Positions 1,102 through 23,110 of a DNA stretch of 41,345 bases are shown in pieces; the stretch's first letter is position 1; each line of letters starts with the position of its first letter. The notes beneath the pieces are model-generated. The model was given only the letters and a program-made list of their open reading frames with translations. It made no database searches and was not told the origin of the DNA. The DNA is from a virus: positions 1 to 41,345 of the IMG/VR virus record IMGVR_UViG_3300021475_000383; one strand, written 5' to 3'. The translations under genes and the position numbers were made by a program.

Positions 1102-1106
1102 AACTT

Positions 1107-1129
1107 ACTAAGGTGAATCACTAAGTCAA
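1107..1129. promoter_or_regulatory. Candidate operator with two ACTAAG repeats
   Basis: ACTAAG occurs at 1107-1112 and 1120-1125, 13 bases apart. The second copy lies in the 11-mer CACTAAGTCAA at 1119-1129, found identically at 22552-22562 in the repressor control region. It overlaps the stop codon of the gene at 1126 and precedes the terminator. Read leftward it also contains TTGACT, a possible -35 hexamer, but no good -10 follows. Binding by the Xre protein is inferred. Confidence 0.5.
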
Positions 1130-13383: not shown

Positions 13384-15024
13384 TCATGCCACCTTGCCCC
13401 GAATGACAAAGGCGAAATGGTCAACTAGGCCACCGGCAACTTGACCATTTCCGCTTCCCGATGCGGATGCCGCCGGGGCTAACTCGATCCGGCAGTACAC
13501 CGTAAAGTCCCTGCCGTCGGTTTCCACCTTCTCCACCGTCTTGAGAACAAACTTGCGGCGCTCGTCGAAGGTCTTCAATCCGTCCAGGCCTTCTTTCAGT
13601 TGTACGCACGTGTCCACGATGCGGTCCCGGCTGGGCAGCGCCACCACGGCGGCCTCGCGCGCTTCGACCTCAAGCGTCTGCCGTTCGGCCTCGATCTCCA
13701 GCAGCTGCTGGGCGGCCTTGTCGCGGGTCCGCTGCGGCACGTTGGCGAAGACGATGGCTTCCGTGCGGTCATAGCGTTCCTTGAGGCGGGCCAGCTGCGT
13801 TTCGACGCTCACGGCATCCGGTTTGGCGCGCGTGATCTCGGCGTGGTATTCCTTCGCCAGCCGGTAAGCGGTTTCCGGTTGGCGGATCCGGTCGCGCACC
13901 CCGTCGATCACCAGATCCTCGATCAGGGCCGCGCGCACCTGGGTCGAGTCGATGCACAGTTTCTCGCGGGTGCGATTGTCGTACATATTGCTGCAGGAGA
14001 ACGCCCCTTTTTTGCGCAACACCCAGCGGCGTTTGCAGCGCTGGCCTGACGGCAAAGTGCAGGCGCAATGGATCTTGCCGGAAAGCGGGCTGCTCGTCGA
14101 CGGGCGGCCCGCGCGGTCCTTGTGCCGCGCCAGCATCACCTGGACCTTATCGAACAGCGCCTTGTCGATCAGCGCCGGAACTTTCAACGTCACCGACTCC
14201 GGTCTTAAATCCTCGCCCTTCACGGTGGTCACGTACTGGCCAGTGTATATCCGATTGCGCAGGACCTTGAGCACCGTGAAATTCGACCAGAGCTTGCCGT
14301 GTTTGGTCAGAATCCCCGCCCGGTTCAAGGCGATCTGAATTCGGAACGCCGACCCGTGCTCCGCGTAAGCCTCGAAGATCAGGCGCTTCACCACGTCGGC
14401 TTCGAACGGGTGCGGCTCGATGTAGCCTTTGCGGACCGCCCCGCCCGTCAGACGGCCGCCGGGATGGTACAGGTAGCCGTAGGTGTGGCACTCGCCGCCG
14501 TTGACGTGGCCCTCCTTCGCCTTCTGCAATCGGCCCTTGGAAGTGCGCTGGATGATCAACTCGGCTTCGTATTCCGCGAAGGTGGCGAACTGGTTGTACA
14601 TCATCCGGCCTTGCGGCGAATCGTCAAACTGCTGCAAGGCGAACGCCAGCGCGGCGCCTTCCCCCTTCAGCATCCTGCGAAACTCGATGGCACCGACCAC
14701 GTCGCGCGCGACCCGGTCCAGGCACAGCGCCAGCACCCCGCCGACTTGTTTGGTGGAAACCAATTCCATCAACCGTTGGTAGTCGGGACGATCAAAGTTC
14801 TTGCCGGTTTTTTTGTCGATCAGGATGAAACCCTCGGGCACGTTGACGCCGATGTCCGAAGCCAGCCGCAGCAGGGTCGCGCGCTGCGAAGCCGGGGAAT
14901 ACATTTCACCTTGATCCTTGGTGCTTACCCGAATGTACATCAGCCACGGCAGGCTTACCTGCTTCCACGTCAGCTTCATCGCCTCCTGCCGGGGCGTCAA
15001 TTGTCTGATTGCCGCTGCGCTCAC
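13384..15024 (-). CDS. Large serine recombinase (phage integrase)
   Basis: Encodes 546 residues, normal for the family. The resolvase domain begins with YIRVSTKDQ, where Ser34 is the expected nucleophile; LCLDRVARD is the conserved arginine helix, and a long helix with YEAELIIQRTSKGRLQKA follows. The recombinase domain has ALNRAGILTKHGKLWS and VLKVLRNRIYTGQYV. A zinc ribbon (CACTLPSGQRCKRR ... CSNMYDN) precedes a coiled coil (LARLKERYDRTEA ... LLEIEAERQTLEVEAREA). It should insert and excise the phage at att sites. The GTG start overlaps the upstream stop. It lies in mid-window with phage genes on both sides. Confidence 0.95.
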   Translation of the reverse strand: MSAAAIRQLTPRQEAMKLTWKQVSLPWLMYIRVSTKDQGEMYSPASQRATLLRLASDIGVNVPEGFILIDKKTGKNFDRPDYQRLMELVSTKQVGGVLALCLDRVARDVVGAIEFRRMLKGEGAALAFALQQFDDSPQGRMMYNQFATFAEYEAELIIQRTSKGRLQKAKEGHVNGGECHTYGYLYHPGGRLTGGAVRKGYIEPHPFEADVVKRLIFEAYAEHGSAFRIQIALNRAGILTKHGKLWSNFTVLKVLRNRIYTGQYVTTVKGEDLRPESVTLKVPALIDKALFDKVQVMLARHKDRAGRPSTSSPLSGKIHCACTLPSGQRCKRRWVLRKKGAFSCSNMYDNRTREKLCIDSTQVRAALIEDLVIDGVRDRIRQPETAYRLAKEYHAEITRAKPDAVSVETQLARLKERYDRTEAIVFANVPQRTRDKAAQQLLEIEAERQTLEVEAREAAVVALPSRDRIVDTCVQLKEGLDGLKTFDERRKFVLKTVEKVETDGRDFTVYCRIELAPAASASGSGNGQVAGGLVDHFAFVIRGKVA

Positions 15025-15383
15025 TTTCGGCCTCCCTTCGCCGCTTGGCTGCCACTTCGAGCAGAAACTGAACCAACCCGATTTCCGCTTTTCGGGTTTC
15101 GGGTCCTGGCGCTGCCCCGCAGATACTGCCGGACAGTTTGGATTCGTTTTTTCCCCGGCGCTTCTTCACAGGCCGCCTCCAGCGCCGCTACGCGCGCTCT
15201 CGCAATCGGCAGTGCGCGGCCAGCCAGCAGGCGCACCGCTTCGTCCCGATCCTGCGTGCCGGAACTTTCCTGGATGGTCTGGCCCTCTCCGTCTTTGTAG
15301 ATCATCCACCACACCCGCCCCCGAATCTGCAAACTGCCGCTGCCATAGGGAAGGCCGGTCGGTTTCTTCTGGTTTATTGACAT
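15021..15383 (-). CDS. Stand-alone arm-type (AP2-like) DNA-binding domain protein
   Basis: Encodes 120 residues. The first 60 read YGSGSLQIRGRVWWMIYKDGEG.....SGTQDRDEAVRLLAGR. This three-stranded sheet plus helix layout is that of the arm-site-binding N-terminal domain of tyrosine integrases; here no core-binding or catalytic domain follows. The rest is a basic, low-complexity tail. The stop overlaps the start of the serine recombinase. It may act as an accessory factor for recombination, or be a remnant of a tyrosine integrase. Function inferred. Confidence 0.6.
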   Translation of the reverse strand: MSINQKKPTGLPYGSGSLQIRGRVWWMIYKDGEGQTIQESSGTQDRDEAVRLLAGRALPIARARVAALEAACEEAPGKKRIQTVRQYLRGSARTRNPKSGNRVGSVSARSGSQAAKGGRK

Positions 15384-16738: not shown

Positions 16739-17316
16739 CGTTTTCCCTCTGAAGCAATCCGAGCGGTATCGTGGCCGCTGCCCCAACGCCAGATGGCTTC
16801 CATCACTAACCGCCGAGGGACGAAGACGCACTCGGAATGCCAGCCCCTGGTCCCTGGCGTGTGCTGCTCCCATGCGCCAAAGCGCTCGCGCCATGCTTCC
16901 CAGCAACGTTGAAACACGCAGCACAAAGGTGGAAACGGAACGATGAAGAAACGGCCGGTATCTTTCCAATACCAGAGAATGTAATCCGCCGTCTTCGCCC
17001 CATCCCGCGTCCAGCCAATGATGTCCTTTTCTTTCACGCTGAACGTTTCCAACGCAAGATCGTCGCTGAAGTCGGGCGCCTGGACGCTGTAATCCGTGTC
17101 CCGCAGTTTCAGGTCGACCGCGAGGGTCTTCAATCCATAACGTTCGATGTAGTAGTCGGTGCCGTCCTTGTCATTCTGCTTCAGTGCGCGGCGCACCGTC
17201 TTGAAATTCGGAATCCGATCCGCCAGGAACGGCAGCACGCTGTCCGCGTGAGGCGCGTGGCCGTTGCTGAAGTCCAACCGCTCTTGAAATCCATACGACC
17301 GGGGGGGCTTCTTCAT
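16735..17316 (-). CDS. Possible PD-(D/E)XK nuclease-like protein
   Basis: Encodes 193 residues from the ATG at 17316, which overlaps the methyltransferase stop by four bases. The pattern GTDYYIERYG, LAVDLKLRDTDYS, DLALETFSVKEKDIIGW, KTADYILWYWKDTGRFFIVP reads like a restriction-endonuclease-fold core: Asp in the first strand pair, Asp-x-Lys in the next, a Glu strand, then a Tyr/Trp-rich strand. A Vsr- or restriction-like enzyme paired with the methyltransferase is possible; the catalytic set cannot be fixed by eye. The C-terminal part holds a CC pair (PPLCCVFQRC). Confidence 0.5.
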   Translation of the reverse strand: MKKPPRSYGFQERLDFSNGHAPHADSVLPFLADRIPNFKTVRRALKQNDKDGTDYYIERYGLKTLAVDLKLRDTDYSVQAPDFSDDLALETFSVKEKDIIGWTRDGAKTADYILWYWKDTGRFFIVPFPPLCCVFQRCWEAWRERFGAWEQHTPGTRGWHSECVFVPRRLVMEAIWRWGSGHDTARIASEGKR

Positions 17317-18356
17317 GTTGCGCCCCCGTCGCTTTCCGCGCCCCAGACCTTCCATCCTTTGCGAGGGCCGCGCGCGAACATTTCCAGCCACGGGCCGGGA
17401 GAGCAGCGTTCTACAAGTTGATAGAATTCGGCGGGCTTGCCGGAATGCTCCGATGTTCGCTTCGCCGCGAACCACGTCCCCGCGTCGCGCACCAGCAGGT
17501 CCAACGATCCGCGCACTCCAAACAGAACGTGCTCAGTGCTGCCGCGAAAATAATTTCCCATGCCGATGCTTGGCTTGCACCACGTCAGCGCGGTGACGTA
17601 GCGGAACCCCCACGCATCGAGCAAGTCGAACCCTTTGGGCAACGACCGATTTGTGATCCACAAATACAGGTGCGCGTCGTCGTCGGCCAACTCCTCGACA
17701 GGCAGCGCCGCGATCTCCTCCACCGGCATGGTCGCGTATTCGGGTCGTCCCCTTCCAAATTGATCCACGTCGCCTTCATCGCCCCAGTCCCACGGCGGGT
17801 CGATGACGATGGTTGGATAAGATTCGCCGACCAGGCTTTCGGCATATTCGGTGTCTTCCACAATGCGCCGGTTGTGCGCGCGTTTCTTCTCGCGGTGTTG
17901 CTCCTTCAGAACGCGCAGCAGGCCTGCAGTCGTCAACTCATCGTGTTCCTCTTCAACGCCCCGCTCGATGTAGCTCTCGAACAATGGTCCCGGCACCCGC
18001 GCGATCTGCTGCCAGCGGTGGGACTGAGTCTTCTCGACGCCGAGATCGGGAAGCTTCACGGTTGCGGGTTGCAACTGTGATTTTCGATCTCCGCCGCGCC
18101 CACTGTCCCGTTCCCCCTTCCGCTCCATGTCGATCAACATTTCCCCGGCACGGCGCTCGGCGCGCAGCCGCACCTCCGCAGCTTCCTGGGCCATGTGGCG
18201 AGAGTGCTGCGCTGCCTTAAAGAACTTCTCGGCACCGCTGGCGATCCCACGCACATGAAGAACCTCGTCCAGCGTCTCGGCATTCTTCAGCAAGGCCCGC
18301 AGTCGCGCCACCAATGCGGGGGTTGGATCTGGACCGAGTTTGGCTGGTGCTCTCAT
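17313..18356 (-). CDS. MT-A70 family N6-adenine DNA methyltransferase with helical N-terminal domain
   Basis: Encodes 347 residues. Residues about 170-345 are the MT-A70 domain: TIVIDPPW with DPPW at 186-189 (catalytic motif), then LPVEELADDDAHLYLWITNR, GFRYVTALTWCKPSIGMGNYFR and TSEHSGKPAEFYQLVERCSPG, the family's conserved blocks. The N-terminal part is helical (AAEVRLRAERRAGEMLIDMERKG, GRGGDRKS, SQLSHRWQQIARVP-like), a ParB/KorB-like module often fused to phage MT-A70 enzymes. It transfers methyl from AdoMet to adenine in DNA. Protection from host restriction, or methylation-based regulation, is the likely use. Confidence 0.9.
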   Translation of the reverse strand: MRAPAKLGPDPTPALVARLRALLKNAETLDEVLHVRGIASGAEKFFKAAQHSRHMAQEAAEVRLRAERRAGEMLIDMERKGERDSGRGGDRKSQLQPATVKLPDLGVEKTQSHRWQQIARVPGPLFESYIERGVEEEHDELTTAGLLRVLKEQHREKKRAHNRRIVEDTEYAESLVGESYPTIVIDPPWDWGDEGDVDQFGRGRPEYATMPVEEIAALPVEELADDDAHLYLWITNRSLPKGFDLLDAWGFRYVTALTWCKPSIGMGNYFRGSTEHVLFGVRGSLDLLVRDAGTWFAAKRTSEHSGKPAEFYQLVERCSPGPWLEMFARGPRKGWKVWGAESDGGAT

Positions 18357-19799: not shown

Positions 19800-19952
19800 T
19801 CACGCCTCCTCTTGTGCCCCGCAATCGAGACATTTGAAACCGACATACCTCTGCCGCTCCGCGCCGCCGTCAGGCGATGTTACCCCCGTATAGCATTCGC
19901 CCTCGACGCCGATGAGATTCCAGGACCCGCAGGACGGACAAGCGAAAACTAC
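19800..19952 (-). CDS. Zinc-ribbon frame after the RecT-like gene, start unresolved
   Basis: About 50 residues: CPSCGSWNLIGVEGEC ... YVGFKCLDCGAQEEA, a clear two-CxxC ribbon. Third codon positions are G/C-rich as in real genes, and it ends at the ribosome binding site of the next gene. It lies in the -1 frame relative to the RecT-like gene, whose stop is at 19949. No ATG, GTG or TTG stands at a sensible place before the first CxxC. It may start at a rare codon, be made by frameshifting from the RecT-like gene, or have lost its start. The coordinates give only the part that must be coding. Confidence 0.45.
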   Translation of the reverse strand, partial: VVFACPSCGSWNLIGVEGECYTGVTSPDGGAERQRYVGFKCLDCGAQEEA

Positions 19953-20929
19953 TTCTTCTCCGTCCCCGGATCCGTCGTCTCCGACGGCGGCGCGTTCAGA
20001 AAACTTTCCTGGGCCATGATCTTGTCGCGCACGTTGGGCCGCGCGCGCGGGCCGCCTTCTTCTAAGGGCGGTCCCGGCGGCGCCTGCAGATCCGCCGGCA
20101 ACATCTCGGGCGTGGCCGCTTCGAGCGGAACCATTTCGAGCGCTTCTTCGCGCGACACTGCGCCGCGCAGCACGTGCGGAGCGTGGTACTTCTTCACGCG
20201 GCCCACGGTGCGCCAGTAGTACATATCGCGGCCCCAGGATTGGAAATTCCACTTTTGCGAGAGCGGGATCTGTTTTCCCTTTTCCCAGATCTGCGCGGTG
20301 TCGGCATCGAACTGGGTGAAGCTGACCGAGATCGGCTTATTGTTGCGATCCATCATCGGCAGGTACTTTTGCTGGTCGGCGTTCCACTTTTTCAGCCAGA
20401 GCACGCACCCGACGCACTTCTTATACTTGCGGCCCTTGTGATCGACCTCGTCCTCCACCCATTCGATGTCCCAGTCGTAGCCGCCCTGCTGCAGCTTGGC
20501 CGCGACGATCTCGTTCTCGATGGCTGGGCGGCCGTTGGTGAAATAGATGTACCGGATGGAGTCCGCGGGGTTGAACCCCCAGGCGCGGCCCAGCTGGATT
20601 TTCACCATGGCGGTCGCGATGGCCTGTTCCATGCTCTGGCCGTTGATGTCGCTGAACTGGCCGCTGATGGCGAACTCGCGCGCCAGCGCCCGGTCCTGCG
20701 CGAAGTTCTGGCGCGCCACCTCGGCTTCGACCAGAGCGCTGATCCAGGTTTCGCGCTTCACGTTATCCGGCATGGCCAGCAAGTGTTCGATGGTCACACG
20801 CGATCCCTGTTGCGGCTTGGCCAAATCCGTCGGAGCGGCGGGCGGCGGCGGAACGGCGAGCGCCTGTTGCGGTGGCGGTGGCGGTTCAGCGGGCGCACCT
20901 GTAGCGCCCGCGTCGATGGTCGGGTTCAT
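19949..20929 (-). CDS. RecT-like single-strand annealing protein
   Basis: Encodes 326 residues. A Pro/Ala-rich leader (about 40 residues) precedes a core with MEQAIATAMVKIQLGRAWGFNP, IRYIYFTNGRPAIENEIVAAKLQQGG and WGRDMYYWRTVGRVKKYHAPHVLRGAVSREEALEM. The last block (W..DM..WR..GR..K.Y.P.VL.G) is typical of phage RecT/Redbeta-superfamily annealases. It should coat single-stranded DNA made by the neighbouring YqaJ exonuclease and promote strand annealing. A CVGC pair lies in a middle insertion. The C-terminal end is disordered. The order exonuclease then annealase is the standard phage pair. Confidence 0.8.
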   Translation of the reverse strand: MNPTIDAGATGAPAEPPPPPQQALAVPPPPAAPTDLAKPQQGSRVTIEHLLAMPDNVKRETWISALVEAEVARQNFAQDRALAREFAISGQFSDINGQSMEQAIATAMVKIQLGRAWGFNPADSIRYIYFTNGRPAIENEIVAAKLQQGGYDWDIEWVEDEVDHKGRKYKKCVGCVLWLKKWNADQQKYLPMMDRNNKPISVSFTQFDADTAQIWEKGKQIPLSQKWNFQSWGRDMYYWRTVGRVKKYHAPHVLRGAVSREEALEMVPLEAATPEMLPADLQAPPGPPLEEGGPRARPNVRDKIMAQESFLNAPPSETTDPGTEKK

Positions 20930-20954: not shown

Positions 20955-21935
20955 TTACGCGGCGTCGGCTTCCTCGCCGCGCAGATCATCATGCTCGAAG
21001 CGGATCTTGCGATAGCCCGGCTTCGGGCGCGTGTAGAATTGCTCCAACTCCTCGCGCTTATCTTTGTCTTTCACGTACTCGTTGAGAAGGCCGCGCGCCA
21101 TGCTTTCCCAATCCGTCACCGTCGAATCCTTGATGCGCCGCCAGGTGAATTTACCATTCGGCCATACCAACCCCTCTTTGTCCGCAATGGCGGCCTTGAT
21201 CAAGTTCTCCAGTTTCTCGCGATGCTCCTTCAGCGCGGCCTGTTCGAAGCGCACCTGGGCGTACTCGGTGAGCATCAGGATCTCTGCCTCGGTGGCATAG
21301 CGCAGATCGGGCCGCTTGTGGCGCGGAAACGTCGTCTGCAGCCAGCGCGCGGCGGCGGGGCTGCTGCCCATCTCGGGCCGGTCGTCGCCCAGGATATAGC
21401 GCTGGTGCCATTCCGAGATCCGCAGCAGCATCTGGCGCTCTGCGACGGCGTCCAGGCGCTCGACCGGAATGATCCGAAGCTCGTCGCCGACCATAGCCGC
21501 GATGTCCCACACCGGGTAGTCCATGGCCGCCATGTAATAGTAAGCCTGGACCTGGATGTATTCCGGCACTTCACCCGCCATCGTGCCCCAATTGCGCCGC
21601 TGGTCCCAGGCCACCAGCTTGGCATCCACGCCGCGCCGCTCGCCGCGCACCAGGCCGTCCGGGGTGTAGATCATCCATGGACGCTCTTTGTCCTGCAGCG
21701 TCTGGTTGAAGTACTCCACATCGCGCCGGGTTCGATGAGCGTAGAACTTGAGGATGGCCTCTTCAAAAAAACGGCCGGCGATCATCCGCTCCGTTGGCTC
21801 CTGGTCGGCGACGGCGTCTTTCTTGCGCGCCCAGACGCTGAACTCATCGAGATAGGGATGGCACCCGAAGAGCGCAGCGGCCTCGCTGCCGCCGATGCCC
21901 ATGCGCCGCACGTTTGGATCGATGCTCATTGCCAT
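20955..21935 (-). CDS. YqaJ/lambda-exonuclease family recombination nuclease
   Basis: Encodes 326 residues. It starts with the family signature GIGGSEAAALFG, then GRFFEEAILKFY, TPDGLVRG (Asp93), GVDAKLVAW (Asp104, Lys106) and EVPEYIQVQAYYYM, i.e. the PD-(D/E)XK active-site blocks in the right order. The usual second acidic residue is Asp here rather than Glu. The last third is helical (YAQVRFEQAALKEHREKLENLIKAAIAD), a common extension. It degrades 5' ends of duplex DNA to give single strands for the RecT-like partner. Its start overlaps the upstream gene by 10 bases. Confidence 0.9.
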   Translation of the reverse strand: MAMSIDPNVRRMGIGGSEAAALFGCHPYLDEFSVWARKKDAVADQEPTERMIAGRFFEEAILKFYAHRTRRDVEYFNQTLQDKERPWMIYTPDGLVRGERRGVDAKLVAWDQRRNWGTMAGEVPEYIQVQAYYYMAAMDYPVWDIAAMVGDELRIIPVERLDAVAERQMLLRISEWHQRYILGDDRPEMGSSPAAARWLQTTFPRHKRPDLRYATEAEILMLTEYAQVRFEQAALKEHREKLENLIKAAIADKEGLVWPNGKFTWRRIKDSTVTDWESMARGLLNEYVKDKDKREELEQFYTRPKPGYRKIRFEHDDLRGEEADAA

Positions 21936-22108: not shown

Positions 22109-22348
22109 TCACTTCCGGGATTTACCGTTGCGGGTTGCCTGCGCCCTGGCGGCTGGCTTGCGCGGTGTCGACTCGCCGTATTCATACGTGTCCATCATGT
22201 GTTGCAGCGCCTTCTGCAGAGAGCAGGAGGTCCAACCCATCTTTCGTCCGATGTCTTTTGCGATGGAATGAAATTGCTCCAGAGACTTGGTCACCATCTC
22301 CAAATTGACGTGTCTGGTTTCCGTTTCAGGACTTGCCGTCGCTCGCAT
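22109..22348 (-). CDS. First gene of the early left operon, possible small DNA-binding regulator
   Basis: Encodes 79 residues. The ATG at 22348 lies five bases after GAGGAG; an in-frame GTG at 22354 would lie inside that site. The middle part (RHVNLEMVTKSLEQFHSIAKDIGRKMGW ... SLQKALQHMMDTYE) is a strand followed by two helices and could be ribbon-helix-helix-like. The tail is basic (RKPAARAQATRNGKSRK). It is the first gene behind the leftward promoter, the place of a Cro- or N-like regulator. Assignment inferred from position. Confidence 0.55.
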   Translation of the reverse strand: MRATASPETETRHVNLEMVTKSLEQFHSIAKDIGRKMGWTSCSLQKALQHMMDTYEYGESTPRKPAARAQATRNGKSRK

Positions 22349-22458
22349 ACACACTCCTCGCCATGTGGAGTTTCCGAGGCTATAAAGTTTGTCGATGGCC
22401 TTTCAAACGCTGCTTTCTGCTTGCCGCCGCGTTCGGCCATCCCCGTTGAGTGACTCCG

Positions 22459-22487
22459 AATATAACCCCACTCAGTGATAAGGTCAA
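22459..22487 (-). promoter_or_regulatory. Leftward sigma70-type early promoter
   Basis: On the minus strand TTGACC (22487-22482), 17 bases, then TATATT (22464-22459): four or more matches in each hexamer and ideal spacing. It is about 110 bases ahead of the first early gene. The spacer contains CACTGAGTG, a short palindrome related to the ACTAAG motif next to it, so repressor binding would block it. Confidence 0.75.
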
Positions 22488-22515
22488 TATGCGAAAAATA
22501 AGGGTAAATCGTTTG

Positions 22516-22548
22516 GGCTTAGTGTTTTACTAAGTAATTCACTAAGCC
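22516..22548. promoter_or_regulatory. 33-bp dyad operator
   Basis: GGCTTAGTG at 22516-22524 is the exact inverse of CACTAAGCC at 22540-22548. An inner palindrome TTACTAAGTAA (22527-22537) shares the same centre at 22532. Symmetric positions match at all but two base pairs per side. It is a strong candidate binding site for the divergently encoded Xre protein. Confidence 0.75.
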
Positions 22549-22562
22549 TTACACTAAGTCAA
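22529..22562. repeat. Three ACTAAG repeats, 12-base period
   Basis: ACTAAG at 22529, 22541 and 22553. The last is part of CACTAAGTCAA, repeated exactly at 1119-1129. The 12-base period would place a protein on nearly the same face of the helix. Confidence 0.75.
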
Positions 22563-22587: not shown

Positions 22588-22834
22588 CGGGGTGTTTCTA
22601 TTCCTGATAAACCCTTCGTTCTCAACCGGTTCCCATGGATCGCCCGACCCGGCTTATAGGGGTCATCCAAGGTGGACAACCGGCGTTCCGGTACGATCAT
22701 GGTCGCGCTGCAATATTTATTTTTGGCCGAGCGTGAGGAAACCCACGGAAGGGCCAGGGGTTCCCTGTGACATTGCACACCTGTACCGTGGCCCGTGGCA
22801 ATCCGAGCGCTTGCCTTTTACGATTGTAAGCGGA

Positions 22835-23110
22835 ATGGACAAGGACACCGAACGAGCGGCTATCCGGCTGGCCTACGGTTACACCCTGCGCTCCCTGCGC
22901 AAGCGCATCGGCCTGGCCCAGGAACGGATGGCGCTCGAAGCGCACGCCGACCGGGCTTATGTCAGCGGGCTGGAACGCGGCCTGCATACGCCCACGCTCG
23001 AAACCGTGATCCGATTTCTGCCGTTCCTCAAGGTTTCGTTTCCCGAGTTCGCCGTCGAGTACGACAAGTGCCTGCGGCGCGCCCGCCGGGAGACGAAGAA
23101 GAACGGCTAA
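22835..23110 (+). CDS. Xre-family helix-turn-helix regulator (candidate lysogeny repressor)
   Basis: Encodes 91 residues from the ATG at 22835. Residues about 16-65 form the Xre helix-turn-helix: LRSLRKRIGLAQERMALEAHADRAYVSGLERGLHTPTLETVIR, with the family's S-x-x-E-R-G turn. The tail is basic and there is no peptidase domain for RecA-induced cleavage. It is the only rightward gene in the window and faces the early promoter across the operator region. Its last 4 bases overlap the end of the late operon. No clear ribosome binding site stands before the ATG, so weak expression or another start is possible. Confidence 0.8.
   Translation: MDKDTERAAIRLAYGYTLRSLRKRIGLAQERMALEAHADRAYVSGLERGLHTPTLETVIRFLPFLKVSFPEFAVEYDKCLRRARRETKKNG

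Follow-up and report, generated by a model that had tools for sequence, protein, structure and literature searches.

A conserved, predicted operator array upstream of the early promoter of a temperate phage, and its candidate readers

Introduction

Which protein reads a set of evenly spaced ACTAAG repeats beside the early promoter of a temperate phage, and how might lysogeny be held and released there when the repressor-like protein encoded next to it carries no cleavage domain? The locus belongs to one IMG/VR virus record, 41,345 bp long (IMGVR_UViG_3300021475_000383), the whole of which was analyzed and is referred to below as the window. With a 60-bp fragment and a pair of small proteins, it offers an experimentally compact test case for the holding and release of lysogeny without a RecA-cleavable repressor, and study of the repeats would show whether a mode of reading DNA is common to small phage repressors and to controller proteins of the restriction type.

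The phage and its early promoter

Gene content suggests that the phage is temperate: it is marked as such by a large serine integrase (13384..15024, minus strand), in agreement with the lysogeny setting that a first-pass annotation had given the locus. From the left end of the window to 22.35 kb, all genes with a family match point leftward. A DUF3489 protein at 164-607, with a repetitive Lys/Ala/Thr-rich first half, has a homolog in one other record (L022).

The predicted early promoter, here PL, lies on the minus strand at 22459..22487 (TTGACC-17-TATATT), with its −35 hexamer at 22487-22482, its −10 hexamer at 22464-22459, a 17-bp spacer, and a predicted start near 22452. It heads a recombination and methylase gene block, reading leftward into a small gene for a 79-residue protein (22109..22348, minus strand), then into genes for a RecE/YqaJ-type exonuclease (20955..21935, minus strand), a RecT-like annealing protein (19949..20929, minus strand), and others, with an MT-A70 DNA methyltransferase (17313..18356, minus strand) further down. 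To the right of PL, the xre gene (22835..23110, plus strand) runs rightward and is followed by a convergent 95-aa gene, whose product has no Pfam match, and then by leftward tail genes. Only two sites in the 41-kb window score at least 10 of 12, PL and a plus-strand site at 15377. The first-pass annotation had called this leftward promoter excellent, and its sequence and conservation (below) likewise point to a strong sigma-70 promoter.

No prophage relatives were found, by Xre or by RecT, among 84,980 species genomes, and phage records likewise yielded none by DNA, Xre, or RecT (50,697 records for the two proteins). Comparison draws on other virus records. One of them, IMGVR_UViG_3300047409_000500 (hereafter L003), is truly syntenic: gene order is largely the same across the window, and identity to the window is 70% for Xre, 70% for RecE, and 70-71% for RecT. 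Its positions 44-787 hold an apparent tyrosine recombinase, judged by sequence, where the window phage has its serine integrase; the integrase class has apparently been swapped within one collinear genome type. Another relative is L011 (RecT 64%, RecE 50%, Xre 38%). The promoter is in place in both relatives, as TTGACG-17-TATAGT in L003 and as TTGACA-18-TATAGT (11/12) in L011.

A tandem array upstream of the −35 hexamer

The predicted operator array occupies 22516..22559. ACTAAG begins at 22529, 22541, and 22553, an exact 12-bp period, accompanied by CTTAGT at 22518; a core palindrome, TTAC-TAA-GTAA (22527-22537), lies inside the array. Three equal hexamers at equal spacing arose in none of 1000 dinucleotide shuffles, and the window's three-unit array score was reached in none of 400, so that the 12-base-period repeats noted at first pass are borne out.

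All five plus-strand copies of ACTAAG in the window fall either in this array or in another pair of boxes (1104..1126), where the early gene block has its 3′ end. The copies of this pair are at 1107 and 1120; TTACTAAG lies 13 bp from CACTAAGT, beside a strong hairpin, GGCCCCG..CGGGGCC (fold z = −3.4). This pair is possibly a distant operator; it has no counterpart in the phage of L003.

The first-pass annotation had framed the repeats as half sites of a 33-bp dyad (22516..22548). Its arms (22516-22531 and 22533-22548) are 88% complementary about a center at 22532, which the inner TTAC-TAA-GTAA shares; no dyad in the whole window is better, and when the intergenic region (440 bp) was shuffled by dinucleotides, 1 of 1000 shuffles equalled it. 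To that extent the description stands, but the dyad is not conserved as a unit: in the alignment, its left arm, GGCTTAGTG in the window, becomes GAGCAGGGG in L003, and as a functional unit it can be ruled out. What the alignment of window and L003 does keep is the −10 and −35 hexamers and a 23-bp block, GTTTTACTAAGTAATTyACTAAG, within intergenic DNA that has otherwise diverged. Beyond it, by our own reading (the automatic alignment is gapped elsewhere), ACTAAGT followed by TTGAATGrCCGCCGGGT is common to both records, and therefore the window has one 12-bp unit more. Since L003 lacks both the left dyad arm and one unit, the conserved element is a tandem array of short palindromes (ACTtAGT) spaced one helical turn apart, and not the 33-bp dyad. 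This array gains and loses units, the number of boxes varying between relatives.

In other records the boxes differ in sequence. Upstream of the L011 promoter, CTATAA/CTATAG/CTAGCC/CTATAA follow one another at 11-bp steps, and in L004 and L008, whose Xre is 51% identical, ACAAA recurs at 11-bp steps at the promoter. In each of these records, as in the window and L003, the best intergenic three-unit array lies at this place. Shuffles reached the array score in 5 of 400 cases for L008, 24 of 400 for L003, 80 of 400 for L004, and 104 of 400 for L011; taken singly, the arrays are strong only in the window and L008, and those of L011 and L004 are not significant alone. No array was recognized by eye in a further record, L043, which has two tandem xre genes on the strand opposite its first leftward gene. 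The possibility that the repeats are functionless accidents of intergenic DNA, which is AT-rich for this genome (48% vs 37% A+T), sits poorly with the shuffling results given above and with the 23-bp block, which L003 keeps although the intergenic DNA around it has diverged; we regard it as extremely improbable. The array is, as far as sequence comparison can indicate, a conserved regulatory element, and almost certainly the binding site of one of the phage's own regulators.

Position relative to PL and xre

No part of the array reaches the −35 hexamer: counted from the predicted start, it spans about −64 to −107, wholly on the upstream side, and it is some 275 bp from the xre start codon (ATG 22835). 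The xre gene has an upstream conserved block of its own, CACCTGTrCsGTrkCCCGTGGC (22778..22802, plus strand), about 220 bp from the array and a candidate control region for xre. The locus is thus neither compact nor lambda-like, and neither the "compact" switch of the first-pass annotation nor its picture of an array facing xre can be retained. A main role for the array as part of the xre promoter is ruled out by the separate block and by the array's staying with PL.

A position upstream of −35 is unusual for the site of a simple repressor and usual for that of an activator. The array could be an upstream activating site, at which Xre or another protein stimulates PL from −64 to −107, much as the controller (C) proteins of restriction-modification systems stimulate their own promoters. 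The position is conserved in the window, L003, and L011, and C proteins, to which Xre is closest, must be present for their own genes to be transcribed (PMC4321490). Against this, the promoter hexamers are near consensus in all three records (10/12, 10/12, and 11/12, respectively), such promoters rarely needing an activator, and the spacing between array and −35 differs by 2 bp between the window and L003. Activation seems unlikely.

Two other sites in the region are recorded here for completeness. Within the spacer between the −10 and −35 hexamers, CACTCAGTG (22469..22477) matches YACTNAGTR, of which the window holds two matches against 0.49 expected; it is a possible extra site, and L003 does not conserve it. 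The second site, GTTCTCAACCGGTTC (22618-22632), located between the array and xre, is the window's only exact match to GTTCN7GTTC (1.4 expected), which is the alphaproteobacterial form of the LexA box; it is not conserved in the relatives. The SOS box CTGTN8ACAG was also looked for and occurs at chance level only.

Candidate readers of the array

The reading that we favor, and to which we give an even chance, is that the array is a predicted early-promoter operator read by the small, C-protein-like Xre. Xre is a DNA-binding protein encoded opposite the early operon of an integrase-bearing phage. It has 91 residues, HTH_3 is its only domain, and it is the only HTH_3 protein in each of five related records searched. 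Its closest solved structures are the restriction-modification controller proteins C.AhdI (6.6e-12), C.BclI, and C.Esp1396I, one chain of the last showing DRAYISGIER where Xre has the recognition helix DRAYVSGLERG. TAL effector repeats that also appeared among the alignment matches were spurious: no single stretch passed, and they disappeared with a wider alignment.

Recognition helix and boxes appear to vary together. The helix of L003 (DRAYMSGLERG) is nearly identical to that of the window, and the boxes are the same; L004 and L008 have another helix (GRSYMGALERG) and other boxes (ACAAA, period 11). This co-variation favors Xre as the reader, with few independent points compared. In bacterial homologs with the related helix DRSYVGRVERG, GACTATCAGTC-type sites immediately precede the homolog's gene, and plasmid homologs have GACTATCAGTC or GACTATAGTC there, which are canonical GACT/AGTC half-sites. 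In L011, an inverted repeat, GACTTG-N6-CAAGTC (1623-1646), lies directly at the xre start and is possibly an Xre operator of its own. The window contains no exact GACT-N3-AGTC site, and none within one mismatch between PL and xre. Both the canonical C-box and the C.Csp231I site (CTAAGN5CTTAG) were considered as descriptions of the array, and are ruled out by orientation and spacing. That the boxes take the form ACT-N1-AGT in 12-bp direct repeats, and not GACT-N3-AGTC, counts against Xre as the reader, as does their place upstream of −35 against Xre as a repressor.

Tandem palindromes one turn apart suit ribbon-helix-helix proteins or directionality factors at least as well, which likewise weighs against Xre. 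Ribbon-helix-helix operators usually consist of short palindromes repeated in tandem, one turn apart. In the main rival reading, which is possible though on balance improbable, the 79-residue first early protein reads the array and autoregulates PL as Arc does, while Xre acts elsewhere, for instance at the conserved block upstream of its own gene; the existence of that block speaks for such a division. The protein, a candidate antagonist at first pass, is real, with an ATG at 22348 and, in the corresponding position of L003, a homolog of 30% identity. A small protein with a strand-helix-helix (ribbon-helix-helix-like) pattern comes first behind the promoter in the window, L003, and L011, and probably in L044 and L043. 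In L043, the first leftward gene (2005-2679) apparently joins a strand-helix-helix N-terminus to a PAS domain (PAS_3 7.5e-10). The fold is suggested by sequence pattern only: it found no match in Pfam, PDB sequences, or Foldseek, and AlphaFold2 models of the first early protein are of low confidence, with two or three helices. Two further observations argue against this protein as the reader. The presumed contact residues are H,N,E in the window but N,N,K in L003, despite identical boxes, and the first gene of L004 does not resemble such a protein, yet an array is present there.

The array might also be a site for a recombination-directionality factor or a Cox/Apl-type regulator, bound head to tail as in phage 186. 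The array is built of direct repeats, spaced by 12 bp in the window and by 11 bp in L011, L004, and L008, the spacing at sites of such proteins being 10-11 bp. No gene of this type was seen among the genes scanned for family matches, however, and the units are palindromic rather than asymmetric. The phage, moreover, has a serine integrase, and the directionality factors of serine integrases work differently. We consider this very unlikely.

If Xre is indeed the reader, it would bind the boxes cooperatively and keep PL off in the lysogen, either by blocking the contact that RNA polymerase makes upstream or by reaching a weaker box in the promoter spacer, CACTCAGTG. Because Xre has no cleavage domain, release of PL would depend on a drop in the amount of Xre or on an antagonist, and not on RecA-driven self-cleavage. 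The first-pass annotation had already described a small Xre without a cleavage domain and inferred induction by other means, and both statements agree with what is seen here: no S24 peptidase in the record, and neither S24 nor M78 in five related records, which may be incomplete (controls for the S24 search were positive). The lack of these peptidases in the five records argues against classical RecA self-cleavage of Xre, which we treat as excluded, and it would fit control independent of RecA cleavage.

More broadly, these records may represent a family of switches in which an uncleavable, C-protein-like Xre exerts all its control of the early promoter from the upstream side, by way of one-turn-spaced boxes, the sequence and number of which change with the recognition helix, while a ribbon-helix-helix partner heads the operon. 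As a whole, this generalization is tentative and rather doubtful.

Comparison with known systems

The locus is a phage life-cycle switch of a divergent but ordinary kind, and its features find partial parallels in several known systems. Restriction-modification C proteins are, like Xre, small HTH_3-only proteins, and the recognition helix of C.Esp1396I is nearly the same as that of Xre. C.AhdI, C.BclI, and C.Esp1396I use GACT/AGTC half-sites, and C.Csp231I the 5-mer CTAAG (PMC4321490); ACT/AGT is common to the GACT/AGTC half-site and the boxes described here. The spacing differs, being ACT-N1-AGT in a 12-bp tandem instead of GACT-N3-AGTC or CTAAGN5CTTAG. Unlike the genes of C proteins, xre has no restriction endonuclease partner that could be seen beside it, its neighbors being the 79-aa and 95-aa genes that flank it, and the sites lie at the promoter of another operon.

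Among phage repressors, the P2 C protein offers a parallel: it is small (99 aa) and recognizes direct repeats close to an early promoter (PMC4752584), as the candidate repressor here would. It binds a pair of 8-bp repeats that flank the −10 hexamer at a distance of 22 bp from each other (PMC4752584), whereas the three boxes here are 12 bp apart and upstream of −35. Apl, Cox, and Xis bind in the lysis-lysogeny promoter region, at direct repeats that follow each other at intervals of one turn, or 10-11 bp (PMC7498355). With the operators of 186 Apl and P2 Cox the array has in common that its direct repeats are spaced by one helical turn and belong to the switch region; it differs in its palindromic units, in the lack of an Apl/Cox-type gene among the genes scanned, and in its location, since the 186 and P2 sites lie between and over face-to-face promoters. 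Arc-type autoregulators share with this locus short palindromic boxes about one turn apart, and the candidate protein would be the product of the first early gene; Arc-type proteins have a ribbon-helix-helix fold, which the candidate suggests by sequence pattern only. As with lambda cI/cro, a repressor-like HTH gene is divergent from the early operon, but here that gene encodes no cleavage domain, stands off by about 275 bp, and has an upstream block of its own, and the operators do not lie over the promoter. Small uncleavable phage repressors such as P2 C, and direct-repeat sites spaced by one turn such as those of 186 Apl, are already known; what is unusual here is the upstream position of the array.
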